Virus record (IMG/VR): IMGVR_UViG_3300012985_000032
Location: 1-20,100 of that record
DNA from: a virus
Length of the DNA stretch: 20,100 nucleotides
Strand: one strand, 5' to 3'
Shown here: positions 3,966 through 17,702 of the stretch, in pieces
Layout: each line of letters begins with the position of its first letter
How positions within the stretch are numbered: position 1 is the stretch's first letter
The notes under the pieces: generated by a model
What the model was told of the DNA's origin: nothing
The model's input: only the letters and a program-made list of their open reading frames with translations
Databases searched by the model: none
Position numbers and translations under genes: made by a program

Positions 3966-5123
3966 ATGACCCGAACCATCGACCTGTTCTCCGGCTGTCG
4001 AGGATGGGACGTGTTCGGCCGCGAGATCGGCCTCGACCCGCTCGGCATCGAACTCGACGCGGACGCCTGCGCCACGAGTACCGCGGCCGGGTTCCGTTCC
4101 ATACGCGGCAACATCGCCGCGATGGACCCGGCCCGGTTCCGTTCGGCGGAAGGGATCATCGCGTCGCCACCATGCACCGATTTCTCCACCGCAGGCGCGC
4201 GGGCTGGGGTCGAGGGCGAGTCGGGCCGGCTGATCTTCGAGGTTCCCCGCCGGGTTGAGGCGATCCGGCCGCGGTGGGTTGCGTGCGAGCAGGTCCCTCC
4301 GGTGTTGGAGTGGTGGGAACGGTTCGCGCACGACTTCACCAGCCTCGGGTATCGCTGCTGGACGGGCCTGCTCAACGCCGCCGACTACGGCGTCCCCCAA
4401 ACCCGGACCCGCTCGTTCCTGCTCGCCTCGTTGGATCGTGACCCGCGCCCGCCGGAACCGACACACGCTCGCCATCCGATGCCGGGCCTGTTCGGGACGG
4501 ACCTGTTGCCGTGGGTGAGCATGGCCGACGCGCTCGGATGGGGCGTGAACGATCGGCCGTGCCCGACTGTTACCGCAGGCGGTGGCGAAACCGGGGGGCC
4601 GGAACCGATCGCACATAGCAAGAGAGCCGCCGCCGCCGCCGCCGCCGCGCGAGGAGAGTGGATCGTCAACACGCATGGCGACTACGACGAGGGCGGCACC
4701 GACTTTCCGATGTGCGAGCCATCGTGGACGCTGACCGAAAAGGCCCGATCGTGGTGGATGCTGCACACGAACCGCGGCCAGGATGAGCATGGTAACCGGC
4801 AGACGCGTGAGACTTCCGCGCCCGCGCCCGCGCTCTCGTCGAAGGCCGGAGGTCAGTGGGCGTTCCAACGGCCAGCTGCGACCGTCTGCGCCGATCCTCG
4901 GCTCGCCGATCCTCGGCTCGCCGATCCTGGTCACCGTGATCGCGAAGGCGGCGAGCGCCAGTTCCGAGAGGACGGCATCCGGCTCACGGTCCGGGACGCG
5001 CTGATCCTCCAATCGTTCCCGCCCGACTATCCGCTCGTAGGGAACAAGACCAGCAAGTTCCGCCAGATCGGCAACGCCGTCCCACCCCTCCTCGCCCGCC
5101 GCGTCCTCGAACAAGTCCAATGA
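3966..5123 (+). CDS. Cytosine-C5 DNA methyltransferase
   Basis: A 385-residue enzyme with the ordered motifs of cytosine-C5 methyltransferases, which transfer a methyl group from S-adenosylmethionine to cytosine in a short target. Motif I is DLFSGCRGWD (6-15), motif IV SPPCTDFS with catalytic Cys70, motif VI EQVP (108-111, where most members have ENV), motif VIII QTRTRS (145-150), and motif X RQIGNAVPP (366-374). The target-recognition region (about 160-335) has an eight-Ala run (221-228) and a DPRLA repeat (310-320). The likely role is to modify phage DNA against host restriction or to affect packaging or expression. It ends inside the terminase start codon (ATGA), so the two are coupled. 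The target sequence cannot be read, and no partner endonuclease gene is seen. Confidence 0.93.
   Translation: MTRTIDLFSGCRGWDVFGREIGLDPLGIELDADACATSTAAGFRSIRGNIAAMDPARFRSAEGIIASPPCTDFSTAGARAGVEGESGRLIFEVPRRVEAIRPRWVACEQVPPVLEWWERFAHDFTSLGYRCWTGLLNAADYGVPQTRTRSFLLASLDRDPRPPEPTHARHPMPGLFGTDLLPWVSMADALGWGVNDRPCPTVTAGGGETGGPEPIAHSKRAAAAAAAARGEWIVNTHGDYDEGGTDFPMCEPSWTLTEKARSWWMLHTNRGQDEHGNRQTRETSAPAPALSSKAGGQWAFQRPAATVCADPRLADPRLADPGHRDREGGERQFREDGIRLTVRDALILQSFPPDYPLVGNKTSKFRQIGNAVPPLLARRVLEQVQ
4626..4649 (+). repeat. GCC trinucleotide run coding for polyalanine
   Basis: Seven GCC codons and one GCG give eight consecutive Ala residues (221-228) inside the recognition region of the methyltransferase. 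In-frame length change by replication slippage would alter the linker without a frameshift. Confidence 0.9.
4890..4928 (+). repeat. 15-base in-frame direct repeat in the methyltransferase gene
   Basis: The unit gccgatcctcggctc occurs at 4890-4904 and 4905-4919, with a third partial copy at 4920-4928. It codes for repeats of A-D-P-R-L in the target-recognition region. The copies are identical at the DNA level, which suggests a recent duplication. Confidence 0.9.
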
Positions 5124-6703
5124 CCCGCGGCCCGATACCGCGCGAGCTTCTCCCCTTCGCCACCGACGAGGAACTCGACCAATACGTCGACTGGCTCGAA
5201 TCCGAAGTCGACACCCAAGCCGTCGACACCGACACCTGGACGCTCCAAGACCGCCAACAAGACGCCGAGGACGCCCTCACCGACCTCGACCCCGCAATGT
5301 CGCACGAGCTCCTCTACGGCGGCATGGCCGGCGGCGGCAAATCCGACTTCTTGCTCTGGCACCCGTACAACGCCTGCCAGCGATACCCGGGCCTGCAGGT
5401 GCTCATCTTGCGGCGCACGTTCTCCCAGCTGCGCCGCTCACTGATCCGCCGCTCCCTTGAACGGTTCGATCGGGCCGTGTGCAAGTACCTCGTGACCGAG
5501 ACGACGTGGAAGTTCACGAACGGGTCGAGCATCGAGTTCGGCTACCTCGAGTCCGACATGGACGTCTACAACTACGACTCGGCCGAGTACGACATCATCG
5601 AGTGGGACGAGCTCACGCAGATGCCGACGCCGTTCCCGTACCTGTACCTGTTCTCCCGGCTGCGGTCGAAGTTGTCGATCCGGGCGCGCGGGTTCGTCCC
5701 TCACGTCGTCGCGGCGACGAACCCGGGCCGGGTTGGTGCGGCGTGGGTCAAGGCCCGGTTCGTTGACACCGCCCCGGCGGATACCCGCACGGTGCACGAA
5801 CTCGTCGACGATGAGGGCAACGCGATCGCGTTCGACGATGACGGCCAGCCGATGTTCGGCACCCGCATCTTCTTGCCCGCGACCTTGGATCAGAACCGGT
5901 ACATCTCCCGGGCCCAATACACCGCGAGCCTCGCGAACCTGCCGAAGGCGCAACGAGAAGCGCTCCTGTCCGGCAGCTGGGACACGATCGAAGGCCAATA
6001 CTTCACCGAATGGGACCGGTCCCTCCACGTCGTCGACCCGTTCACGATCCCGGCCTGGTGGACGCGGCTGCGCTGCATCGACTACGGCCACTTCGCCCCG
6101 TTCTGCTGTCTGTGGCTCGCGTTCGACGGCGACAACACCGCCTGGGTGTACCGGGAGCTCTACAAGCGGAACCTGACCCCGAAACAGCAGGCCGCTGCGA
6201 TCTTGGATGCGCAGGCGCCGGGCGAGCACATCGCGTATACGATCATCGACCCGTCGACGATGGCGCGCACCGGTGTCGGTATCCCGATCGCGCAGCAGTA
6301 CGTCGAGGCCGGGGTGCCGGTCCGGCCGGGCCTGAACGCCCGGGTCGCGGGCTGGGCGCGCGTGCGTGACTTCCTCCGCCCGGTCGAGCAGCCCGGCCCG
6401 AACCCCGACGACCCGCCGATCCTCGTGCCGGGCCTGCGGGTGTTCTCGACGTGCACCGATCTGATCCGCACCCTGCCGATGCTCGTGCACGACCTCACCG
6501 ACCCCGAAGATTTGGACTCCGACGGCGAGGACCACGCCGCCGACGCCCTGCGGTACGGGCTGATGTCGCGGCCGCCGCGGTCCCGGCCAACGAAAGAGAA
6601 GCCCGATACCTTGGAGAAGCGCATGGCGGCCAACCGGCGTCTGCGAGAGTTGGAACGGCAGGGCCGCAAGTCGGTTGATCATCCGATGCTCGGCAAAATC
6701 TGA
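5120..6703 (+). CDS. terL: Terminase large subunit (DNA packaging ATPase/nuclease)
   Basis: A 527-residue packaging motor that pumps phage DNA through the portal and cuts the concatemer. The ATPase half shows Walker A GGMAGGGKS (67-75), Walker B YDIIEWDE (157-164) with the paired acidic residues, and the coupling motif AATNP (198-202). The RNase H-like nuclease half shows RCIDYGH (318-324, Asp321), IIDPSTM (375-381, Asp377) and DGEDHAADALRYG (468-480), giving the expected acidic cluster. Length is normal for the family. The ATG overlaps the methyltransferase stop by four bases. The C-terminal 40 residues are basic (ANRRLRELERQGRK), as usual in proteins contacting DNA or portal. No small subunit is recognised beside it. 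Confidence 0.96.
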   Translation: MTRGPIPRELLPFATDEELDQYVDWLESEVDTQAVDTDTWTLQDRQQDAEDALTDLDPAMSHELLYGGMAGGGKSDFLLWHPYNACQRYPGLQVLILRRTFSQLRRSLIRRSLERFDRAVCKYLVTETTWKFTNGSSIEFGYLESDMDVYNYDSAEYDIIEWDELTQMPTPFPYLYLFSRLRSKLSIRARGFVPHVVAATNPGRVGAAWVKARFVDTAPADTRTVHELVDDEGNAIAFDDDGQPMFGTRIFLPATLDQNRYISRAQYTASLANLPKAQREALLSGSWDTIEGQYFTEWDRSLHVVDPFTIPAWWTRLRCIDYGHFAPFCCLWLAFDGDNTAWVYRELYKRNLTPKQQAAAILDAQAPGEHIAYTIIDPSTMARTGVGIPIAQQYVEAGVPVRPGLNARVAGWARVRDFLRPVEQPGPNPDDPPILVPGLRVFSTCTDLIRTLPMLVHDLTDPEDLDSDGEDHAADALRYGLMSRPPRSRPTKEKPDTLEKRMAANRRLRELERQGRKSVDHPMLGKI

Positions 6704-6715
6704 GAGGACCAGCCC

Positions 6716-7219
6716 GTGGACATCTACCTCGACGACCACTACCCCGCCGATGCCGCCCACGGCTGCGACTACCTCACCCGCAACGCCCAAGGCGACATTC
6801 AGGTCGAAACACCCGACGGCATCGTCCTTCGCCGCGAGAAGGTGCTCATCACCAACCGCGAGGAAGATTTCGAGGGGCGCATCTGCATCGGCGAACGCAC
6901 CGTCCGTCACCTCGCCCACCAGCTGGGTCTCGTCGACGAGTGGCGCGTCGACATGGTCAAGGCCGACAACGAGGCGCTCCGGGGCCGCCTGGTCGCCATG
7001 TCCGCGGCCGCGCAAGCCGCCCGGGACGAGAACACCCGCCTCGCACAGTTGGAACCGCCCGACGCCGACGTGGTCTACGTCGCGCTCGACGGGACCCGCC
7101 ACGCCGACGAGCGGGCCGCGCTCGAACGGTCCGCTCAAACCCTGAACCTCGAACCGGCCCTGCTGCAGGACACGGTTCGTACCGCCAGCCCGATCCCACC
7201 CGTGGAGGTCCCCGTATGA
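6716..7219 (+). CDS. Coiled-coil protein of unknown function
   Basis: A 167-residue protein from a GTG at 6716, with GAGAGGA (6702-6708) as ribosome site seven bases upstream. The first 60 residues are beta-like and acidic (MDIYLDDHYPADAAHGCDYL, then GIVLRREKVLITNREEDFEG). Residues 63-115 are helical with a probable coiled coil (DMVKADNEALRGRLVAMSAA). The C-terminus is Pro-rich and extended. It is unrecognised. It lies between terminase and portal and overlaps the next gene at gtATGA, so a role near the packaging vertex is possible, but only by position. Confidence 0.75.
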   Translation: MDIYLDDHYPADAAHGCDYLTRNAQGDIQVETPDGIVLRREKVLITNREEDFEGRICIGERTVRHLAHQLGLVDEWRVDMVKADNEALRGRLVAMSAAAQAARDENTRLAQLEPPDADVVYVALDGTRHADERAALERSAQTLNLEPALLQDTVRTASPIPPVEVPV

Positions 7220-7674
7220 CCGCGCTCATCGTTCTCGCCGTGCTCGTGCTCGCCTGCCTGGTCGTGTTCGGGCTCATCACCTCCGAGAAACGCAACCGTC
7301 TCCTTGCGGAATACGTCGGCGAGGAGCACCAGCGGAACCTTGAGGTCTGCCGCCAGCTGGTCACGATGACCGAGACGTGGGGCGCCGAGATCAGCCGGGC
7401 CGCCTTGCGCGAGACCGAAGACACCCGCCAGGTCCTACAGGCGCTCGCGTCCGAACGCCGTCTGTTCGTCAACGCTGTGCTCGCGTCGAGCGCCGACCCG
7501 CGCGCCGTGCAACGACTCGGCCTCGTCGAGCAGGCGGCGTCGCGCGAGGAACGATCCCTGAGCCTGCGCGAGGAACTGGCGTTCCTGCGCGACGACGACC
7601 CCTACGCCCGCGAGTCCGAGACCACCGGCCCCAACGGTGAGGTCATCGTCCCCGTCGGCATGACCGGCAACTGA
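7216..7674 (+). CDS. Membrane-anchored coiled-coil protein, function unknown
   Basis: A 152-residue protein starting at ATG inside the previous stop region, with GTGGAGG (7202-7208) as ribosome site. Residues 2-22 (TALIVLAVLVLACLVVFGLIT) form a single hydrophobic span with a short outside or periplasmic N-terminus. Directly after it comes SEKRNRLL and then a long charged helix to about residue 130 (EYVGEEHQRNLEVCRQLVTM; SREERSLSLREELAFLRDDD). The body is probably cytoplasmic and self-associating. It is unlike a classical holin, which normally has two or more spans and is shorter. It could be a membrane-docking factor or a virion protein. Its place between terminase and portal is unusual. Confidence 0.75.
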   Translation: MTALIVLAVLVLACLVVFGLITSEKRNRLLAEYVGEEHQRNLEVCRQLVTMTETWGAEISRAALRETEDTRQVLQALASERRLFVNAVLASSADPRAVQRLGLVEQAASREERSLSLREELAFLRDDDPYARESETTGPNGEVIVPVGMTGN

Positions 7675-7684
7675 GGACGCTCCC

Positions 7685-7720
7685 CCGACCCGAAGCTGAC
7701 CGGCCGTAGGCTTCGGGCGA
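7685..7720 (+). promoter_or_regulatory. Probable leaderless portal promoter with overlapping inverted repeat
   Basis: CCGACC (7685-7690, the GAC core of a -35), 16 bases, then TAGGCT (7707-7712, TAnnnT -10), and the ATG at 7721 after eight bases with no real Shine-Dalgarno. A perfect eight-base inverted repeat, CCCGAAGC (7689-7696) and GCTTCGGG (7710-7717), separated by 13 bases, overlaps the -10. It could be a repressor site on DNA, or a hairpin in longer transcripts that read through from upstream. Confidence 0.5.
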
Positions 7721-9865
7721 ATGGCTGCGCTCGACATCGCCGCGTCTGCCGCCCGCGGCCCGGAGAACCCGGACCCGCTCGCGCCGCAGCGCCCCGAAGG
7801 CAAGCGCACCGACCCGCTCGCCGCGATGGTCATTGCCCGCTGGAAGGCGTGCGGCGACGAACTGATGAAACAACGCCGCGACTTCTGGCAAAACCTCGCC
7901 ATGTTCTACGGCGAGCAGTGGGTGTGGTGGGACTCCCGCCGCAACATGCTCCAAGCCCTCCCCCAGGCCTGGTCTCCGCTCGGCAAGGGCCGGGCCCGGA
8001 CCGTCACGAACCGGCTCCGCCCCAACCTCATCGGCCTTCTCGGCCGGATGATGCGCAACGACCTCGAGTTCGACGTCCCCCCGACCGACTCCGCTGACGA
8101 CGTCGTCTCCGGCGCGATGCTCGCTGAGGACGTCCTCGCCGCCGCCCACCATGATCTCAACTGGCGTGACGTGCGCTACAACGAGAACTTCGCCAAGTTC
8201 ATCGGCGGCACCGCCGCAGTCTGCGTCGAATGGGACCCCTCGGCAGGCACGCCGCTCGCGGTCGACGACATGACCCGCAAGGTGACCGGCACCGGCGAGG
8301 CGTGCCTCACTGCCATGTCGATCAACGAGTTCGGGGTGCAGCCCGGCGTGCGCGACGCGAGCAAGGCCCGCTGGTGGGTGCAGGGCCTCGCCTTCTCGCC
8401 CGAGGTCGTCAAGGAAACCTACGGTCTCGACTGGCTGCCGAACGCCGACGCGTCGACGCTCATGTCGCCGCTGCAGCAACGCCTCCTCGAGCACATGGGC
8501 CGCGGGCAGGGCACCAACCGGCTCACCCTCGTTCTCACCCTGTACGAGCGCCCCAACCCGCAGCGCACCAAGGGCCTCTACGCCGTCGTCGTGAACGGCA
8601 TGACCGTCCACAAAGGCGACTGGCCGTTCGGCCCCAACGACTTCAACCTGTTCGTGTTCCACCAGCAAAAGGTCGACTCAAGCTGGATCGGCACGACGTT
8701 GATGAACGACGCGGTGCCGGTGCAGGTGTCGTACAACTTCATGCGGTCGTGTATCGCCGAACACGCGAAGAAGGTCGGCAACGCCCGCCTGATGGCCCCG
8801 ATGGGCGCGTTCGACGAGGAGGACCTGTCCGACGACCCCGGCTCGATCCTCTACTACACGCCCGACCTCGGCGGCGGCATCCCGCAGTACCTTCGGCCGC
8901 CGGACCTGCCCCGGTGGATGGTCGGCGAAGCCGGCGACCTCAAAAGCGAGCTCGATGACATCATGTTCTCCCACGACACGTCGCGCGGCCAGGCGTCGTT
9001 CGATCGGGCTTCCGGTCAGGCGCTCGCCTTGTTGGCGGAGAAGGACGATTCGCCGCTCGGACTGATGGCGTTCGAGGAAGCGCAGCAGTGGTCGATGATC
9101 GGCTCCCTTGTCCTCAAGTTGTACGAGGCGAAGGTGCGCGAGACCCGCACGGTGCAGGTGCAGCCGCGGGTGTCCCAGCCGGGCGTGGTGCGCCCGTCGA
9201 AGTGGAACGGTAAGCAGTTGAAGGGTCAGACGCGGGTGATCGTCCCGCTCGAGACGACCTTGCCGGTGTCGCAGGCTGCGCAGCAGGCGTTCGCCCGCGA
9301 TATGTGGGACCGCGGGATCGTGAAGGACCCGGTCGTGTTCGCCCGGATGCTGCGCCTCCCGCAGCGCGAACTCATCTCGGTCATCGACGCCGACGTGTCG
9401 AAATCGCAGCGTGAGAACGTGCGGATGATGCTGGGTGAGGCGCCCGAACCGGCCACGTTCGACGACCATGCGAAGCACATCGCCGAGCACAACCGGTTCC
9501 GTAAGGGCGATTCCTACACGTTCGCCCCGGCGCTGACCCGCCAGATCGTCGATGACCACATCAAGTATCACGAGCAGCTCGCGGCGGAGGCGCTCGGCGC
9601 GCAGACGACCCGTGCGCTCGTGAACCCGGCCGTCGCCGCGCTACCGCAAGCGGACGAACCGGCCGGGTCGATGGTCCCGCCCGACTTCGCGGAGCAGCAG
9701 GCCGGGCTCGCGCAGGTCGGCGCGTCCGCGCAGGCGATGCAAGCCGGACAGGCCGGTCAGGGTGGTGCGCCGCCGCCGGGTGGGCCGCCGATGACGCCGC
9801 AGGGTGCGCCCGCAGGTTCGGTCGCGCTCGCGGCCGGTGCCGGTCAACCTTCTGGAGGTCAGTAG
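7721..9865 (+). CDS. Portal protein (P22-like)
   Basis: A 714-residue portal subunit, expected to form the dodecameric DNA channel at one capsid vertex and to dock the terminase. The opening part, RWKACGDELMKQRRDFWQNL with the FYGEQW motif (60-67), then TVTNRLRPNLIGLLGRMMRN (93-112), is the pattern of P22-type portals of short-tailed phages (arrive-and-bind helices, then the R-N-x-G-R-M segment). Later come SSWIGTTLMNDAVPVQ and FMRSCIAEHAKKVGN (stem and wing regions). The last 100 residues are Gln/Ala/Gly/Pro-rich (GQAGQGGAPPPGGPPMTPQG) and probably flexible, where P22 has its barrel. Length agrees with P22-like rather than HK97-like portals. The start is supported by the leaderless promoter pattern. 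Confidence 0.92.
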   Translation: MAALDIAASAARGPENPDPLAPQRPEGKRTDPLAAMVIARWKACGDELMKQRRDFWQNLAMFYGEQWVWWDSRRNMLQALPQAWSPLGKGRARTVTNRLRPNLIGLLGRMMRNDLEFDVPPTDSADDVVSGAMLAEDVLAAAHHDLNWRDVRYNENFAKFIGGTAAVCVEWDPSAGTPLAVDDMTRKVTGTGEACLTAMSINEFGVQPGVRDASKARWWVQGLAFSPEVVKETYGLDWLPNADASTLMSPLQQRLLEHMGRGQGTNRLTLVLTLYERPNPQRTKGLYAVVVNGMTVHKGDWPFGPNDFNLFVFHQQKVDSSWIGTTLMNDAVPVQVSYNFMRSCIAEHAKKVGNARLMAPMGAFDEEDLSDDPGSILYYTPDLGGGIPQYLRPPDLPRWMVGEAGDLKSELDDIMFSHDTSRGQASFDRASGQALALLAEKDDSPLGLMAFEEAQQWSMIGSLVLKLYEAKVRETRTVQVQPRVSQPGVVRPSKWNGKQLKGQTRVIVPLETTLPVSQAAQQAFARDMWDRGIVKDPVVFARMLRLPQRELISVIDADVSKSQRENVRMMLGEAPEPATFDDHAKHIAEHNRFRKGDSYTFAPALTRQIVDDHIKYHEQLAAEALGAQTTRALVNPAVAALPQADEPAGSMVPPDFAEQQAGLAQVGASAQAMQAGQAGQGGAPPPGGPPMTPQGAPAGSVALAAGAGQPSGGQ

Positions 9866-10600
9866 ATGTCCGCACCCGCGCGCACGCGCATGGACGTGAT
9901 TCCCTACCGGCCCGGCGGGGGTAGCGACCTCGTCGTCGAGGCCAACAAGCCTGACGATGTTGTCCGCTACTGGGTCGAGGGTGACAGCTACCCGCGCATC
10001 GTCGTTGACGTCGCGAACCATCAGGTCCTCACCGGTGACGGCACCGTCCCGCCGACGTCGATGACCGCCGGGACCACGCCGACTGGTGCCGCGGGCGGCG
10101 ATCTCGGAGGCACCTACCCGAACCCGACCGTTCCCGCGCTCACCGAGCTCGAAACCGACATCGTCGACCTGGAAACCTTGAAAGCGCCGCTCGCCGCGCC
10201 GAGTTTCACCGGCGTTGTCTCCCTCACTTCCGGGTCGGTGGACCTGACCGAGATTGCCGACCCGGCGTCTCCGGCCGCGAATATCGCCCGCGTCTACGCC
10301 CGCGATGACGGTTCCGGTCACACGCAGTACGTCGTGAAGTTCTCCGATGCCGGGACGGTCGTTCTCGCCACGGACGGCGCGACGCTCGGCCCGATCGCCG
10401 AAGCGAACCAGACCGCCTACAACCAGACCGCCAACGCGACGACCGCGACCGTCGTTCCTGCCGCACTCAATGTCGGTGCGCTGGTCCTGCTCTCCGACGT
10501 CATCACTGCGGTCGGCACCCTTCAGACGGGTATTAACACGAACCGGCAGCTGATCAACCGTCTTATCGACGATCTCCAAGCCGCGAAACTCGCGCAGTAG
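9866..10600 (+). CDS. Short tail fibre or adhesin adaptor protein
   Basis: A 244-residue protein; GGAGG (9854-9858) precedes the ATG, which begins directly after the portal stop. Residues 9-63 (RPGGGSDLVVEANKPDDVVR; VEGDSYPRIVVDV; NHQVLTGDGTVPP) closely match the N-terminus of the next protein and should be a shared virion-attachment domain. GGDLGGTYPNPTV (77-89) is a motif common in phage tail fibres. A helix with ETDIVDLETLKAPLAAPSFTG follows, then a beta region, and a C-terminal coiled coil (VITAVGTLQTGINTNRQLIN; RLIDDLQAAKLAQ) suited to trimerisation. No enzyme motif is seen. It probably acts as a short fibre or as a connector for the large tailspike. Confidence 0.8.
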   Translation: MSAPARTRMDVIPYRPGGGSDLVVEANKPDDVVRYWVEGDSYPRIVVDVANHQVLTGDGTVPPTSMTAGTTPTGAAGGDLGGTYPNPTVPALTELETDIVDLETLKAPLAAPSFTGVVSLTSGSVDLTEIADPASPAANIARVYARDDGSGHTQYVVKFSDAGTVVLATDGATLGPIAEANQTAYNQTANATTATVVPAALNVGALVLLSDVITAVGTLQTGINTNRQLINRLIDDLQAAKLAQ

Positions 10601-10606
10601 CGGCCG

Positions 10607-13600
10607 ATGAGTGCCCCGCCGCTCACGAACAAGGAGTTCCACCCTCGCCATCCTGGGGCGGGTTCCGACTATGTCGTCGAGCCGAACGCGCCCGAGGAAA
10701 CGCTGCGCTACTGGGTTGTTGGTGACGCGTACCCGCGCCTGGTCCTCGATGTTCCGAACCATCAGGTCCTCGTCGGCGATGGCACCGTTCCGCCGGTCTC
10801 TGCGACGGTTGGCACTGCCGCACCGAATGACGCAACGTACGTCACCCTGGCGGCGAGCGCGGGCCTGTCGGCGGAGACGACGCTCGGGAACGTGATCCGC
10901 CGCGACGTTGTCGCGAATCGGGGCGCGTTTGGCACGGCGGGCATCGTGTTCGGCGCGACCGACACCGGTATCGGCTACCGCGATTCCGGCACGAGTTGGG
11001 ACCCGTACTTCGCGGTCCTCGACGGGTCCGGCAAGGTCAACACGTCGGTCCTGCCGCCGATCTCGTCGACGCTTGCCGGACTCACCGACGTTGACCTGAC
11101 CGGCCTCACCGACCTCGACCTGCTCCAATACTCGGCCGGCGCGTCGAAGTGGCTGCGGGTACCGGCCTCCGGGTTCGGCACGACCTACACCGCAGGTACG
11201 GGGCTCACGCTCGCGGGCACACAGTTCCGCATCACGAATATCGGCCCGGGCGCGACCGGCCCACTCGGCTCCGCCACGACCGTTCCCGTCGTCACGATCA
11301 ACGCGCAAGGCCAGACCACCGCGCTCACCTCCGCGGCCATCCAGATCGCCGAAAGCGCCGTCACGAACCTCACGACCGACCTCGCGGCGAAGTTCACAAC
11401 GAGCACCGCCCTGGGCGGCGACCTGACCGGGACCTTGCCGAATCCGACGCTCATCGCGACCGGGCCCGGCGCCACTGGTCCTCTCGGGTCCGCGACGACC
11501 TCGGCCATCGTCACCATCGACGCGAAAGGTCGCGTTACCGCGCTGACCTCGGCTGCGATCGCCATTGCTGAATCCGCGGTCACGAACCTTGTCGCCGATC
11601 TGGCCGCGAAGTTCGCCACGGCAACCGCGCTCGGCGGTGACCTCACGGGCACGCTTCCGAACCCGACGCTCGCCACCTTCGGGCCTGGTGCGACCGGGCC
11701 GATCGGCAGCGCGACCACCGTGCCGGTCGTCACTATCGACGCGAAGGGCCGCGTGAGCGCGCTGACGTCGGCCGCGATCGCGATCGCCGAGTCTGCCGTG
11801 ACGAACCTCGTCACCGACCTCGCGGGCAAAGCTGCCAAGACCGCCGCGGGCGGCCCTTACGGATCTGCGACGTCTATCCCGGGGATCACGGTCAACGCGG
11901 ACGGCTCATTGTCGTTTACGGCGAACGCGATCGTGCTCCCGAAGTTCGGTGGGCTGCTCGTCATCGGCCACTCCTACACGCAAAACGGTGGGAACCGCAG
12001 CTCGCAAGGCGCGCCCGGCCTGGACGTGTGGTCGAACTGGACGCACCGCGTTGCGGGGGCGCTCCAGATCCCCGTCGAAGAAGTGTTCTTGTGGGGCAAG
12101 TCGTCGGCTCGGGCGGGTGTAGCGACACTCGGGGACGGTTCGACACTCCAAGGGTCCGGTGTCGTCATGCGCCACCACGTCCCGAACCACTGGTACACGC
12201 CGAGCCTCACCGCGCATCAGTCGTCGAAGGGTTGGCCCGCACTCATCGTCATGGAGTACGGCTACAACGATGTGGTCAACGGCTGGCAGGGCGGCGTAGC
12301 TCGCACCCAAGCTGAAAACGCGTTCATGCACGGGATGCGGTCGATGATCTCCCGAGTCCGTGCCCGCCTGCTCTATGAGGCAACCAACGCGACGATCGCG
12401 TACACGGGAACATGGTCAACGCAGACCGACAAGAACTACTGCACGAAAGGCACCTACAAGAAAACGACCACCAACACGGATCTGTTCACGATCACGCTGC
12501 CGACCACACTGGAAGGCGACAGCGCCGACGCCGTGATCGTCGCGGTGTGCATGATCGGCACCCCGAACGCGTGGACGACCACAACGAACAGCGCGACCAG
12601 TACCTCGTTGCCGGTCGCGGCACGCGACAACTTCCCGCAGTCCGGCAACTTCGACATCATCGTCAACGGCGCGACCCGCACCGTCACCGCCGGGCAAGGA
12701 ACGGGCGCGGGCACGTTCACGTTGAGTTCGTCGGCAACATGGACTTCCGGCCAGGACGTAGTACGCGCGAGCGGCGCACTCGTCACATGGTCCGGTACGA
12801 GCGGAGTAACGGGCACGACCACGATCGGCGGGCAAGGCGCTACGGGCGTTCCGTGCCATGTCGTCAAGCGGTTCACGCTCACCCGCGCGGCTGCGGGGAC
12901 GACGATCATCGGGACATTGAGCGCGTTCGCGACGAGCGAAGAGTTCGACCTTGACTCCTGGTGGATCGAGGAAACCGACCCCCAACAGGTCCTGTGCGTG
13001 AACCAGCCGCTCGGCGCGCTCGGCACAACGCTCAACCTCGCGTCCGACGCCGGTATCACGACGAATAACACCGACCTCGCGACCGTCGTCGCGGAGTTCT
13101 CCAACAACGTCGCGGTCGTCGATCTCGTCCCGACCTTCAACAGCCTGTACCGGGCGATCTGCCAGGCTGCGACGAGCACCGGCACGAACGTCCACATCAT
13201 CCCCGACGACCCAACGAACTGCGTTATCGGTGTCGGTTCGATCCTTCATGTCGACCAAGAAGAAATGCTCGTCACCGCGATCACCAAGACGAGCAACAGT
13301 GATTGGTCGCTGACCGTTACTCGCGACTACACGACCGCACCGGACGGCCGGTCGACGGGCGGGAACGTCAACCATCTGATCGCCGCGCCGATCTACGACA
13401 TGCGGCCGTGGACACTGGACCGCGTACACCCGTCCGATGAGGGCCACGTCCTCATTGGCTCGCTGGTCCTCGCCGCGGTTGCGGGCTCGACCCAAACCGC
13501 ACGCGAGATCGCGAACTCGGGCGGCTACGTCCAGAAACGCCAACCGAAACTTCTCGATGGCGGCTTCCTGTGGGTCCAGGGCGGCACCCGATCAACGACA

Positions 13601-14122
13601 ACGAACGCGACGAACCCCGGCACGCTCAACATGCTCACCGCGGGCCGCATCTACGTCCCCGAAGCGATCACGCTCACGTCGCTCAGTATCCAAAACTCGG
13701 GCACGGTCTACGCGGCGAACGCGGTTGTCAGAATGGGGGTATGGGCTGACGGCAATCAGCAGCCCGGCGCCCTGATCCTCGACGCGGGCACCGTCGACGT
13801 TCACGCCTCCGCCGCGGTGCAGACGCTCACTTGTTGGGTGCCGTTGAAGCCCGGCTGGTATTGGCTCGGCGCGGTGATCCAGGGCGCGGCCGGTACGGGC
13901 ACGATCACAGTGACAACCGATGTACGGAGTAGCCAGCCGCTCGCGAACACGACGAATCCGCTATCCACCACGTTCGCTGACAACAACGGTGTGCGCCTCT
14001 CGGGCGTCTCGGCCGGATTGCCCGACCCATTCGGCACCCCGACCGCATGGCAATCGGGCGCGACTGCCGCGACCGGCATCATCTGCGTCACCGCGGGCTA
14101 CACCATCCCGATCAAGGACTGA
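10607..14122 (+). CDS. Large tailspike/fibre with split SGNH hydrolase domain
   Basis: A 1171-residue virion adhesin. Residues 8-65 repeat the attachment domain of the preceding protein. Residues 213-430 hold three 73-residue repeats (GPGATGPLGSATTVPVVTI, ending GGDLTGTLPNPTL) plus a decayed fourth. From about 448 an SGNH/GDSL-type hydrolase begins: VIGHSYTQNGG (catalytic Ser456), EYGYNDV (Asn554) and DRVHPSDEGH (Asp938, His941). Such domains remove ester-linked groups from surface glycans, so this is a likely decapsulating or wall-glycan deacetylating spike. The catalytic blocks are separated by a beta domain (about 599-790) and a small beta module (about 873-925, GSILHVDQEEMLVTAITK). The C-terminal 200 residues are Gly/Thr/Asn-rich beta structure, presumably for receptor binding. 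The substrate is unknown. Confidence 0.87.
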   Translation: MSAPPLTNKEFHPRHPGAGSDYVVEPNAPEETLRYWVVGDAYPRLVLDVPNHQVLVGDGTVPPVSATVGTAAPNDATYVTLAASAGLSAETTLGNVIRRDVVANRGAFGTAGIVFGATDTGIGYRDSGTSWDPYFAVLDGSGKVNTSVLPPISSTLAGLTDVDLTGLTDLDLLQYSAGASKWLRVPASGFGTTYTAGTGLTLAGTQFRITNIGPGATGPLGSATTVPVVTINAQGQTTALTSAAIQIAESAVTNLTTDLAAKFTTSTALGGDLTGTLPNPTLIATGPGATGPLGSATTSAIVTIDAKGRVTALTSAAIAIAESAVTNLVADLAAKFATATALGGDLTGTLPNPTLATFGPGATGPIGSATTVPVVTIDAKGRVSALTSAAIAIAESAVTNLVTDLAGKAAKTAAGGPYGSATSIPGITVNADGSLSFTANAIVLPKFGGLLVIGHSYTQNGGNRSSQGAPGLDVWSNWTHRVAGALQIPVEEVFLWGKSSARAGVATLGDGSTLQGSGVVMRHHVPNHWYTPSLTAHQSSKGWPALIVMEYGYNDVVNGWQGGVARTQAENAFMHGMRSMISRVRARLLYEATNATIAYTGTWSTQTDKNYCTKGTYKKTTTNTDLFTITLPTTLEGDSADAVIVAVCMIGTPNAWTTTTNSATSTSLPVAARDNFPQSGNFDIIVNGATRTVTAGQGTGAGTFTLSSSATWTSGQDVVRASGALVTWSGTSGVTGTTTIGGQGATGVPCHVVKRFTLTRAAAGTTIIGTLSAFATSEEFDLDSWWIEETDPQQVLCVNQPLGALGTTLNLASDAGITTNNTDLATVVAEFSNNVAVVDLVPTFNSLYRAICQAATSTGTNVHIIPDDPTNCVIGVGSILHVDQEEMLVTAITKTSNSDWSLTVTRDYTTAPDGRSTGGNVNHLIAAPIYDMRPWTLDRVHPSDEGHVLIGSLVLAAVAGSTQTAREIANSGGYVQKRQPKLLDGGFLWVQGGTRSTTTNATNPGTLNMLTAGRIYVPEAITLTSLSIQNSGTVYAANAVVRMGVWADGNQQPGALILDAGTVDVHASAAVQTLTCWVPLKPGWYWLGAVIQGAAGTGTITVTTDVRSSQPLANTTNPLSTTFADNNGVRLSGVSAGLPDPFGTPTAWQSGATAATGIICVTAGYTIPIKD
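11243..11899 (+). repeat. Three 219-base in-frame tandem repeats in the tailspike gene
   Basis: Copies begin at 11243, 11462 and 11681, each GPGATGP(L/I)GSATT at the protein level, so the period is exactly 219 bases or 73 residues. The third copy loses its GGDLTGTLPNPT end, and from about 11849 a degenerate fourth copy (GGPYGSATSIPGITVNADG) leads into the hydrolase domain. Protein identity is higher than DNA identity, so the repeats are not very recent. Confidence 0.93.
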
Positions 14123-14128
14123 GCCTCC

Positions 14129-14157
14129 GAGACATCTGGACCGTTGCCGCGTAGGGT
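14129..14157 (+). promoter_or_regulatory. Probable leaderless promoter (gene at 14165)
   Basis: GAGACA (14129-14134, four of six matches to TTGACA), 17 bases, then TAGGGT (14152-14157, TAnnnT). The ATG at 14165 follows after seven bases, and no good Shine-Dalgarno is present. This is the best-formed of the leaderless candidates with both hexamers at normal spacing. Confidence 0.55.
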
Positions 14158-14164
14158 GTCGGCC

Positions 14165-14566
14165 ATGACCAAGCCCACCAAGAAGCCACTCACAGCCGAA
14201 CAAGGCGACCTCCTACGCGAACGCGCCGGGATCGTCGCCTTCACCGAGCAGACCGTCGCCCAACTCAACGGCCTGCAACAGCGCCTCACGTTCATCGACG
14301 GGTACCTCACCGGGGCCGGCATCCCGCTCGACACCGAACCACCGCCCGAACCGGAGCCAGAACCGGCCTCGCCTGCGAATCGGGCTGAGGCCCGCCGCGC
14401 CGAACGGGCTGCGAAGAAGGCTGCCGAGGAGCAGGCCCGCCTTGCGCGGGCCGCGTCGGGTGGCAAGAAGGCTCCGGCGAAGAAGAAGGCGGTCGCGAAG
14501 AAGGCCCCGGCCAAGAAGGTCGGGCCGAGACTCGCGTCCGTGCCGGACACCGATGCCGCTCCCTGA
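14165..14566 (+). CDS. Protein with Lys/Ala-rich histone-H1-like tail
   Basis: A 133-residue protein. Residues 1-58 form a helical start with a likely coiled coil (EQGDLLRERAGIVAFTEQTV; LNGLQQRLTFIDGYLTG). A short acidic/Pro linker (PPPEPEPEPASP) follows, then a long basic tail from about 75, with RAEARRAERAAKKAAEEQAR and the KKAPAKKKAVAKKAPAKK repeats typical of histone H1-like or mycobacterial HU C-terminal tails. The tail should bind DNA or other polyanions. It may condense phage DNA or be a virion internal protein. ATG 14165 is chosen over upstream starts because of the promoter at 14129-14157. It ends in CCC-TGA and overlaps the next gene by 14 bases. Confidence 0.75.
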   Translation: MTKPTKKPLTAEQGDLLRERAGIVAFTEQTVAQLNGLQQRLTFIDGYLTGAGIPLDTEPPPEPEPEPASPANRAEARRAERAAKKAAEEQARLARAASGGKKAPAKKKAVAKKAPAKKVGPRLASVPDTDAAP

Positions 14567-14825
14567 GTGGGCGGCCCCACCCGGGCCCGGCTACTCCCAC
14601 GGCGACAGCTACTCGTCGATCGACGTCGTCTGGACCCGCGCCGACCCGCATGACGTCGTGTACCAGACACCGAACGGCTACCGGCGCCTCGCGGGCAGCG
14701 AATGGGTCGAGTTCGTCGTCCCCTACCGGCCGACCGTGTCCCGCAAGCTGCTCATGGTGTGGGCGGTCCTAGCCGGGATCGTCGGTCTTGGCGGTGGCGC
14801 GATCCTCGGTCACCTTCTGCGATGA
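14553..14825 (+). CDS. Small C-terminally anchored membrane protein
   Basis: A 90-residue protein whose ATG lies within the end of the preceding gene. Residues 1-62 are soluble and aromatic (GPGYSHGDSYSSIDVVWTRA; VVYQTPNGYRRLAGSEWVEF). Residues 66-89 (LLMVWAVLAGIVGLGGGAIL and GHLL) are one Gly-rich membrane span preceded by SRK, giving an N-in or tail-anchored form depending on insertion. The single span and 90-residue length fit some small holins, but no lysis enzyme is nearby, so this is not claimed. No ribosome site stands clearly before the ATG; coupling to, or +1 shifting from, the upstream gene could supply ribosomes. Confidence 0.7.
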   Translation: MPLPEWAAPPGPGYSHGDSYSSIDVVWTRADPHDVVYQTPNGYRRLAGSEWVEFVVPYRPTVSRKLLMVWAVLAGIVGLGGGAILGHLLR

Positions 14826-14832
14826 TGGGGAC
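14818..14832 (+). promoter_or_regulatory. Candidate extended -10 of leaderless promoter (gene at 14833)
   Basis: TGCGATGAT (14818-14826) is an extended -10 (TGn followed by nAnnnT) ending six bases before the ATG at 14833. No -35 is visible, as allowed for extended -10 promoters. GGGG at 14827-14830 lies too close to the ATG to be a good ribosome site. Confidence 0.35.
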
Positions 14833-15057
14833 ATGGCCCGTCTGACCGCCGCCGCCCGCAACGCCCTGCCCGACTCGGCGTTCGCGGGTCCGAACCGCAC
14901 CTACCCGGTCAACGACGCCGCCCACGCGGCGAACGCGAAGGCCAGGGTCGCGCAGTTCGGAACGCCGGCCTTGCAGAAACGGGTCGACGCGAAAGCCGAT
15001 CGGCGGCTCGCCGCTCGCGGCGAAGCGATCAAACGAGAGCAGAAGGGGAAACGCTGA
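14833..15057 (+). CDS. Small basic conserved phage protein (LTAAxRNALPxSxF family)
   Basis: A 74-residue protein starting MARLTAAARNALPDSAFAGP, with YPVNDAAHAANAKARVAQFG (23-42) and a basic end (DRRLAARGEAIKREQKGKR). The pattern LT-x-R-(N/K)-ALP-x-S-x-FA-P-x-R-xYP-(V/I)-x-D-x-x-HA-x-NA-x-AR is one I recall from many phage structural clusters and head-maturation proteins, sometimes as a free-standing domain. Its function is not established; location just before the scaffold fits a head-assembly accessory. The start at 14833 is preferred over the GTG at 14788 because it matches the family N-terminus and avoids a 38-base overlap. Its stop overlaps the next ATG by one base. Confidence 0.75.
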   Translation: MARLTAAARNALPDSAFAGPNRTYPVNDAAHAANAKARVAQFGTPALQKRVDAKADRRLAARGEAIKREQKGKR

Positions 15058-15335
15058 TGGCATCACCGGCACGAGACGTGAAAGCTGCCGGGTCCGGTCG
15101 CAAGACCGGCGGTTCCAAGAAGCCTGGCCTCGCCGCGGCGGCCCGCAACGCGGCGCTCGCGGCGGAAGCGGCCCGCTCGCGCGTTGGCACCGCCTCGACG
15201 CTGCACCCTACGGCGAATCTCGGTCCGACACTGCCCGCGGTGAACGCGGGAGATAACGACGGCGACGAGATGCCCTCGACGGCGCCGCGCGTTGCGGTGA
15301 AGGGTCACACCCGGGCCATGCCCGGCGCACGCTGA
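15057..15335 (+). CDS. Small basic, low-complexity protein
   Basis: A 92-residue protein from the ATG in a TGATG junction; AAGGGG (15045-15050) is a suitable ribosome site. The first 25 residues are Lys/Gly/Ser-rich (DVKAAGSGRKTGGSKKPG). LAAAARNAALAAEAARSRVG follows as one helix, and the rest is extended, with acidic DNDGDEMP and a basic close. The LAAAARNA piece resembles LTAAARNA of the preceding protein, which may be chance or a small duplication. No family is recognised. It is last before the scaffold-capsid promoter. Confidence 0.65.
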   Translation: MASPARDVKAAGSGRKTGGSKKPGLAAAARNAALAAEAARSRVGTASTLHPTANLGPTLPAVNAGDNDGDEMPSTAPRVAVKGHTRAMPGAR

Positions 15336-15344
15336 CACGGCGCG

Positions 15345-15396
15345 TAGCCTCCTGAGCGCCACCCCCGGACGGGGGTAGTCCGACTAGGAGGACCCG
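15345..15396 (+). promoter_or_regulatory. Candidate scaffold-capsid promoter with 5' hairpin leader and strong RBS
   Basis: TAGCCT (15345-15350) fits a TAnnnT -10, and RNA would start near 15357. Four bases later a perfect hairpin ACCCCC (15361-15366), loop GGAC, GGGGGT (15371-15376) begins. The ribosome site AGGAGG (15386-15391) stands five bases before ATG 15397. No -35 at normal spacing is evident. A 5' hairpin plus a strong ribosome site suits an abundant, stable late mRNA. Confidence 0.45.
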
Positions 15397-16464
15397 ATGA
15401 CCCAAGTACCAGCCCCCGCGACGCCGCCCGTCCCGCAGACGCCGACCCCGACGTCGCTCGGCGATTCGGAAGCCGCAGCCGCCGCGCACGCCCGCCTCGC
15501 CGAAGCGTTCCCCGAAGGCACCCAGCCCGGAACGCCCGCAGGCACCCCCCCGCCCGCCGCGCCGGCCGCGCCCGGCGAACCTGCCCCGGCCGAGACGGAC
15601 CTGTTCGACGACGCCGCCATCGACGGCCTCAACTTCGACGGCCTGCAATACCGCGACGGGATGAAACTGCGCGATCAGATCGTCAAGGCCCGCGACACCT
15701 ACCGGCCGTTCCGCGACGCGTTCGCCACGATGGACGAGGGCCAACGTCAGGCGCTCCTCGACTCCGCCCCGATGCTCGGTGCCGACCTCGCGACCGTCGC
15801 CCAGGTGAACGCCCGACTGCACCCCGAGGACCGCGCCTACTTCCAAGAGGCCATGTCCAAGTTCGCCGCCGGCGACGTCGAGGGTGGCACACAGATGCTC
15901 GAGGAGGGCGCAGCGTCGATCCGTGCCGCGATGGGCACCCAAGCCGCCGCGCCCGCTCCGCCCGCCGCGGGTACGTCCCCGCTGCCCGATTGGGCGCAGC
16001 CCCCGCCCGGCACCGAGCCCCCGGCCGGTGAGTTCCTCACCAAGGCCGACCTCGACGCCGCGCTCGCCGCGGACCGCCAACAGCGCGACTTCGCCGACAC
16101 CGTCGCCCGCGAGCAGGCGAGCATCGTTGCCCAAGCCCGCGAGCTCGGGTACGATCCAGACGCACCGGACGATTCCCCGGAACAAGACCGCTACCAGTTC
16201 CTCCTCAACGTGGCCGGACGGCCAGGGATGGGGTTTGATCTGGCGAAAGCCCACGATCGGGTAGCGGGCCTTGAGCAGGGCGCAATCGACCGGTTCGTAC
16301 AGGCGAAGTCGGCGGACGCCACTCGCCCCGCAGCACCCGCAGTCGCGGGTGTCGCACCCGCGGACACGCGGACGTTGGAAACCATGACCGACGGCCAGCA
16401 GGCGATGCGAAGTCGCCTCGATGGGACGCTCGGACCGGACCCGCGGAGACGCGCGCCGGAGTAA
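15397..16464 (+). CDS. Capsid scaffolding protein
   Basis: A 355-residue protein directly upstream of the major capsid gene, with typical scaffold character: acidic, Ala/Pro-rich and mostly helical. The first 68 residues are Pro/Ala/Thr-rich linkers (APATPPVPQTPTPTSLGD; GTPPPAAPAAPGEPAP). Residues 85-180 are helical (LRDQIVKARDTYRPFRDAF; EDRAYFQEAMSKFAAGDVEG). A second Pro/Ala linker follows, then a helix around 222-255 (KADLDAALAADRQQRDFADT). The C-terminal end is basic (MRSRLDGTLGPDPRRRAPE), where scaffolds usually contact the capsid protein. Scaffolds share little sequence, so the name depends on composition, size and position. AGGAGGACCC supplies strong initiation. Confidence 0.82.
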   Translation: MTQVPAPATPPVPQTPTPTSLGDSEAAAAAHARLAEAFPEGTQPGTPAGTPPPAAPAAPGEPAPAETDLFDDAAIDGLNFDGLQYRDGMKLRDQIVKARDTYRPFRDAFATMDEGQRQALLDSAPMLGADLATVAQVNARLHPEDRAYFQEAMSKFAAGDVEGGTQMLEEGAASIRAAMGTQAAAPAPPAAGTSPLPDWAQPPPGTEPPAGEFLTKADLDAALAADRQQRDFADTVAREQASIVAQARELGYDPDAPDDSPEQDRYQFLLNVAGRPGMGFDLAKAHDRVAGLEQGAIDRFVQAKSADATRPAAPAVAGVAPADTRTLETMTDGQQAMRSRLDGTLGPDPRRRAPE

Positions 16465-16481
16465 CCGACAAGGGGTGAATC

Positions 16482-17702
16482 ATGGCCGGTTTGACACTGG
16501 CTTTGGCTGACGCGGTCCTCAAGGAGGACTACAAAGGCCCGCTGCGCAAGCAGATCAACGACATGAACGTGCTGTCCGCCCAGGTCGCGAAGAACCGCGA
16601 CGACATCTACGGCCGTCGCGCGGTGATCCCGCTGCAGATCAGCCGCAACACCGGCGTCGGTGCCCGCCTCGAAGGCGAGACCATGCCGACCGCCGGCAAC
16701 CAGGGCACCGTCGATCAGCTGGTGTCGCTGCGATCGAACTACGGCCGGATCCGCCTGACCCGCCAGGTCATCTCGCGCATGGAGAAGGACCGGGGCGCGT
16801 TCGAGCGTGCCGTCGTCCTCGAGATGGACGGGATGCGCGACGACACCGGCCGCGACTACAACCGTCAGGAGTGGGGCACCTCCGACGGCGTCATCGCCCA
16901 ATGCGGAGCCTCCGGCCCCTCGACGACCGTGACGCTTGCGACCACGACCGCCGAGCAGCTGTTGGTGAACTTCGCCGAAGGCATGTCGGTCGACATCGGC
17001 ACCGTCGCCAACCCGCAACTCGTCGCCTCCGCGCGCACGATCACCGCGGTCGACTTCACGAACAAGACGATCACGATTTCCGGCGCCGCCGTGACCGTGA
17101 CCAACGTCGATTTCGTGTTCCGGGCCGGTTCGGGCGGTTCGGGTGCCAACCAGCGCGAGCTCACCGGCATCCAAACGATGGTGTCCGACACCGGCGCCCT
17201 GTTCTCCGTCGACCCGGCGACCTACTTCTCGTGGGCGTCGATCGTCGAAGCGAACGCCGGCGTTGCCCGGCCCGTGTCCGAGAACCTCGTCACCAAGGCG
17301 ATGATGCGGTCCCGGAACCGTTCAGGTCAGGCCAACTGGGCGCTGTACGCCGAGGATCAGGCGTACCGGGCTGCGGTGAACAACCTGTCGGCGAAGCACC
17401 GGATCGTCAACACGCTCGACCTCAAGGGCGGGCACTCGGCGGTCGCGTACGTGCTCGGCGGCAAGGAGTACCCGCTCATCGCCGAGCGTGACGCCCCGGT
17501 CGGCAAGATCTACGGGCTGTGTCACGACAAGCTCGTCGAGTACGTCGACGAGGACTGGCAGTGGGAAGACATGGACGGTTCCGCGCTTCACCTGAGCATG
17601 GACGGTACGCACACCTTCGAGGCGTACTGGTTCAAGTTCTCGGAGTTCGCGACCGTGCAGCGCAACGCCCATTTCCGTATCGACGATCTCGAGCTCGCGT
17701 AG
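16482..17702 (+). CDS. Major capsid protein (HK97 fold)
   Basis: A 406-residue protein following the scaffold after 17 bases, with AAGGGG (16470-16475) as ribosome site. Family features are an N-terminal LALADAVLKEDYKGPLRKQI helix, PLQISRNTGVGARLEGETMP (46-65), and LRSNYGRIRLTRQVISRMEK (83-102) as the spine region. A beta-rich insertion at about 145-225 contains NPQLVASARTITAVDFTNKT, a pattern common in phage capsid proteins. Then come GIQTMVSDTG, the P-domain helices around 265-300 and a C-terminal strand region (EAYWFKFSEFATVQRNAHFR). There is no N-terminal delta domain or protease gene; the separate scaffold agrees with a P22-like assembly route. A large hairpin follows its stop. Confidence 0.92.
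   Translation: MAGLTLALADAVLKEDYKGPLRKQINDMNVLSAQVAKNRDDIYGRRAVIPLQISRNTGVGARLEGETMPTAGNQGTVDQLVSLRSNYGRIRLTRQVISRMEKDRGAFERAVVLEMDGMRDDTGRDYNRQEWGTSDGVIAQCGASGPSTTVTLATTTAEQLLVNFAEGMSVDIGTVANPQLVASARTITAVDFTNKTITISGAAVTVTNVDFVFRAGSGGSGANQRELTGIQTMVSDTGALFSVDPATYFSWASIVEANAGVARPVSENLVTKAMMRSRNRSGQANWALYAEDQAYRAAVNNLSAKHRIVNTLDLKGGHSAVAYVLGGKEYPLIAERDAPVGKIYGLCHDKLVEYVDEDWQWEDMDGSALHLSMDGTHTFEAYWFKFSEFATVQRNAHFRIDDLELA

Follow-up and report, generated by a model that had tools for sequence, protein, structure and literature searches.

Among the described systems closest to the protein studied here is Ape1 of Neisseria meningitidis, a peptidoglycan O-acetylesterase (PDB 4K7J) in which a CBM35-like beta-sandwich lies inside the SGNH catalytic domain (PMC9487903, PMC6174289). 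The catalytic domain of Ape1 is made of residues 45-99 and 227-393, with the beta-sandwich (residues 104-221) inserted early in the fold (PMC6174289), and Curtobacterium prophage proteins that resemble Ape1 have been modelled with a central beta-barrel (PMC9862828). SGNH domains are also carried by phage tail proteins. For Possum gp66 deacetylation has been shown (PMC9569702), and for Aristophanes gp41 it has been reported (PMC8471582); two SGNH fibres of Klebsiella prophages are described as having esterase activity in a source that also cites G7C gp63.1 (PMC13123978).

The window analysed here is a stretch of 20,100 bases of a metagenomic virus record, and it encodes a putative tailspike or tail fibre with an interrupted SGNH esterase domain. 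Like Ape1, this protein has a beta domain within an SGNH esterase; unlike Ape1, which is not a tail protein, it does not carry its beta domain early in the fold, between block I and the later blocks, but after block III. With G7C gp63.1, Possum gp66, Aristophanes gp41 and the Klebsiella prophage fibres it has in common that a tail fibre or spike bears an SGNH domain, for which deacetylation of a host polysaccharide is shown or inferred; those proteins, however, belong to phages of Gram-negative hosts, and the available parts of the sources describe no double-module arrangement for them. A search of the phage collection found no sequence match between our protein and these. The best solved relative of its insert-free core is an acetylxylan esterase (PDB 4OAO and 3W7V), which we take to be Axe2 of Geobacillus; its catalytic motifs align with ours, but it is uninterrupted, has 219 amino acids and does not come from a phage.

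The gene and its setting

The gene (10607..14122, forward strand, like its parts described below and the tail gene before it) is an intact open reading frame with an ATG at 10607 and a stop at 14122, encoding 1171 residues. It starts 6 bases after a paralogous tail gene (9866..10600, 244 aa). The portal gene (7721-9865) is on one side of this pair and the major capsid gene (16482-17702) on the other. The N-terminal anchor (residues 1-70, 10607..10816) shares 63% identity with the corresponding residues of the upstream protein, and because this anchor is shared, the two proteins probably use one attachment site. Two adjacent tail proteins (9866-10600 and the one beginning at 10607) would thus probably be displayed at one kind of site on the virion. 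Further along, three tandem repeats of 219 nt (73 aa; family D1, 11242..11898), as found in phage fibres, would form a stem, with identities of 100, 71 and 62%. Stretches resembling these repeats occurred in 27 viral loci when the whole protein was used for the scan, and the matches of that scan were mostly stem repeats. The anchor, the stem repeats and the gene position make the product a probable tailspike or tail fibre. Searches of PHROGs and plain searches of the PDB with the whole protein gave no match, and a plasmid search gave none either.

The C-terminal domain (residues 963-1171, 13493..14119), which has no assigned function, is 34% identical to the C-terminus of L042, a tail protein of the metagenomic phage IMGVR_UViG_3300027754_000544 that was found by a scan with residues 780-965. 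Arthrobacter phage Phrank15 gp31 (L040, 2986-3585) also weakly resembles this domain (33% over 111 residues), and its gene adjoins a glucosaminyl deacetylase gene.

The phage has 68% GC, a P22-like portal and a capsid nearest to those of Arthrobacter and Microbacterium phages, the closest being Arthrobacter phage Jasmine and Microbacterium phage Shocker. Its host is probably an actinobacterium. The terminase, portal and capsid genes (5120-17702) mark a relative of actinophages, and the gene order differs in that here the tail genes come after the portal gene and before the capsid gene, whereas in Shocker and Jasmine the spike and esterase genes follow the capsid. A C5-cytosine DNA methylase gene (3966-5123; PF00145, E 1.6e-39) is located immediately 5' of the large terminase gene.

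Catalytic blocks of the SGNH domain

An earlier reading of the sequence alone had proposed an SGNH hydrolase interrupted by inserted modules, with catalytic blocks spread unusually far apart. All the motifs were found where that reading had put them: VIGHS at residues 452-456, YND at 553-555 and DRVH at 938-941, in addition to GSILHVDQEEMLVTAI at 877-892, and the blocks (S456, G509, N554, D938/H941) span 486 residues. They are distributed over three pieces. Part A (residues 442-596, 11930..12394) contains block I (Ser456), block II (Gly509) and block III (Asn554), covers positions 1-109 of the GDSL_2 profile and is 47% identical to L042. Part B (residues 791-850, 12977..13156), with the strand QQVLCVNQP followed by a helix and a strand, aligns with PVLLMKEP...VADPNT of the relatives. 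Part C (residues 933-962, 13403..13492) carries block V (Asp938 and His941) and is 53% identical to L042. Invariant columns fall in both A and C.

The native protein matches Pfam GDSL_2 (PF13472) over profile positions 1-109 of 178 with 26 bits (E 1.6e-5), under the curated cut-off of 32.9 bits, because the inserts break the profile match; it passes only once these are removed. In-silico excision of residues 597-790 and 851-932 raised the score from 24 to 45.4 bits and extended the match to positions 1-176 of 178 (E 1.7e-11). Removal of insert 1 alone gave 35.3 bits, a shift of the insert-1 cut by +45 residues 34.0 bits, and a shift of both cuts by -45 only 13.4 bits. Removing inserts had the same effect in relatives, with scores going from 34.2 to 55.1 bits for L042 and from 36.2 to 46.6 bits for Gordonia phage Beenie gp27. 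When six insert-free cores were aligned, no more than eight columns proved invariant (G454, S456, G509, N554, R578, D938, H941 and G946), among them every SGNH catalytic position (S456, G509, N554, D938 and H941). Moreover, the insert-free family profile matched the acetylxylan esterase 4OAO end-to-end (E 8.3e-8), pairing Ser with Ser and the Asp-x-x-His block with DRVHPS. AlphaFold2 models had a mean pLDDT of 32 for the esterase region alone and 30 with L042. Given the gain in score on excision, the invariant catalytic columns and the end-to-end match to 4OAO, the protein almost certainly contains one complete SGNH domain, interrupted by inserts, as the earlier reading had supposed.

Insert 1 and the actinophage family

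Insert 1 (residues 597-790, 12395..12976) is a predicted beta domain that is kept in actinophage tail SGNH proteins, as judged from an alignment with BruhMoment gp38, Beenie gp27, Yappy gp49 and others. A tblastn match to Arthrobacter phage BruhMoment gp38, at 349 aa the smallest relative, led to a family of 25 phage records, consisting of Curtobacterium, Gordonia and Arthrobacter tail proteins, many of them named pre-neck appendage or minor tail protein. The beta domain follows the Asn block, at the same point as insert 1, in all ten actinophage tail proteins that were read. What marks this group is a beta domain that lies after the Asn block and ahead of the core strand preceding block V, and our protein has it. 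Scans of viral and genome contigs gave no match, whether with the whole esterase region or with distant relatives as the query.

The sequence-only reading had regarded GHS in the Ser block as a departure from the common GDS. This does not hold within the family, where GHS is the usual Ser block (10 of 12 members).

The Ser-to-His spacing is 485 residues in our protein and 489 in L042, against 261-310 in single-insert relatives and 155-159 in the SGNH esterases without inserts from the phages with the nearest capsids. Likewise, the Asn-to-His spacing is 387 here, 197-235 in the single-insert family and 89-90 in uninterrupted phage esterases. Since the esterases of Jasmine and Shocker are uninterrupted and encoded in separate genes, we rejected them as being of the same type. 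Judging by the family spacing and by the constant position of the beta domain, insert 1 is long-standing in the family and not peculiar to this phage. No match to insert 1 and its family was obtained in Pfam or among PDB sequences, and by sequence it matches no known CBM. This beta domain probably binds glycan.

BruhMoment gp38, Beenie gp27, Yappy gp49 and the Curtobacterium pre-neck appendage proteins (Trapezoid, Mantle and others) resemble our protein in combining an SGNH domain with a beta insert, in the frequent GHS and in their tail annotation, but they have a single insert, without small modules. Our protein is about 160 residues longer than these single-insert relatives, the excess being one stretch inside insert 1 and another before block V. 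The two inserts proposed earlier (about residues 599-790 and 873-925) were present, with bounds corrected to about 597-790, a composite, and about 851-932.

The two small modules

Small module 1 is nested in insert 1 (residues ~662-725, 12590..12781) and was aligned to module 1 of L042 by position and, more weakly, by sequence. Insert 2 (residues 851-932, 13157..13402) holds small module 2 and matches both modules of L042. Small module 1 and insert 2 are both absent from the single-insert relatives; the double arrangement was found only in our protein and in L042. In comparisons with 2000 shuffled sequences, the score of module 1 against L042 module 1 was reached by 5 shuffles, while that of module 2 was reached by none, whether against L042 module 2 or module 1. 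The two L042 modules scored 77 against each other, with 58 as the best of the shuffles (0 of 2000). Direct comparison of our modules 1 and 2 was not significant, module 1 being divergent, and their kinship is judged from the match of both to the modules of L042. The best reading of the additional stretches is that a general phage module is present twice, with one copy nested within a domain that itself lies inside the enzyme.

Streptomyces phage Dennebes gp45 (L046, 3468-4892) has such a module by itself at its N-terminus. We rejected gp45 as another esterase with module 2, as its N-terminal module is free and no SGNH domain accompanies it. Dennebes gp44 (L046, 2529-3458) also seems to begin with a small module, the score support being for gp45 only. 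Because the module occurs alone in gp45, a structural or general role would fit at least as well as the grip on the substrate beside the active site that the earlier reading had suggested, and we are inclined to doubt, if only slightly, that the small modules are binding parts and not spacers. It is improbable that they form a matched pair over the active site, closing on the glycan chain like a clamp or lid, in a module-in-module esterase passed as a unit between unrelated phages.

A relative in an unrelated phage

Since the window comes from a metagenomic virus record, mis-assembly is possible in principle, and the long spacing might come from a chimeric assembly or from unrelated domains joined by chance. 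We reject this and consider its probability practically negligible, as the same order and spacing are seen in L042, a protein of an unrelated phage from a separate metagenome with 40% identity to ours in the esterase region; from the start of the Ser motif to that of the Asp-His motif it has 490 residues, against 486 here. In addition, an identical partial copy of the L042 protein was found in a third sample. The same arrangement in an unrelated phage means that ours is no artefact.

L042 shares with our protein the esterase, the beta insert, both small modules and the C-terminal domain. It differs in that its contig has 47% GC and an HK97-type capsid gene with relatives in Streptomyces phage phiC31 and Pontimonas phage phiPsal1, and in its N-terminus, for the anchor is not shared (20% over 25 aligned residues). 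The simplest reading would be an exchange of the receptor-binding part between phages. Identity is lower in the modules (28% and 39%) than in the catalytic pieces A and C, which bears on whether the enzyme works. With inserts totalling 276 residues and a Ser block of GHS in place of GDS, the SGNH domain could be a dead enzyme whose catalysis was disrupted by the inserts and which was kept as a receptor-binding fold. We find this quite improbable, given the better conservation of the catalytic pieces, the Ser, Gly, Asn, Asp and His that are invariant in the family and L042, and a GHS that is normal for the family. The protein is likely to be an active esterase.

Proposed mode of action

We propose the following mode of action. 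The N-terminus would anchor the tailspike to the virion, and the three repeats would make the stem. The spike would bind a host surface glycan, with the beta domain as the probable grip, and the SGNH serine esterase would take O-acyl groups, most likely O-acetyl, off this glycan during phage binding. The esterase fold would be complete but written in three pieces: the beta domain would interrupt it after the Asn block, ahead of the next core strand, and would itself hold one small module, and a second module of that type would separate the last core strand from the Asp-x-x-His block. These small modules would probably contribute spacing, stability, trimer contacts or additional binding surface. 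Overall, we judge it likely that the gene encodes an actinophage tailspike or fibre whose three-piece SGNH esterase, with a beta insert and two small modules, deacylates a host surface glycan.

As to the target, we lean towards acetyl groups on an exposed glycan. The esterase might instead act on another ester, such as the O-acetyl of peptidoglycan or other cell-wall polymers, at penetration and not on an exposed adsorption receptor: peptidoglycan is the substrate of Ape1, the best known of the SGNH esterases that contain an internal CBM (PMC6174289), and all the phages in which the beta-insert family was found have Gram-positive hosts. This appears rather unlikely, however, as stem repeats, an anchor to the virion and a C-terminal domain are in keeping with an exposed spike and the phage SGNH tail proteins that were tested act on surface polysaccharide, although in Gram-negative hosts (PMC9569702, PMC8471582).

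Significance

The suggestion of a new glycan deacetylase architecture stands in part. A beta insert is common to the actinophage family and a CBM within an SGNH domain is known from Ape1, so that this part is not new; what does look unusual is the pair of small modules, one nested in the beta domain and the other placed ahead of block V, and a nested, double-module esterase was not found in the literature searched. SGNH tail deacetylases have a known mode of action, and the enzyme is of a known kind, its nesting being unusual.

The annotation of most such tail esterases goes no further than minor tail protein or pre-neck appendage; with the insertion points known, such enzymes can be recognized. 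The nested modules offer a natural example of a catalytic domain that has accepted other domains in two places, in one of which there is nesting. Surface O-acetyl groups are suggested as a common target of actinophages, as has been argued for Klebsiella phages (PMC13123978).
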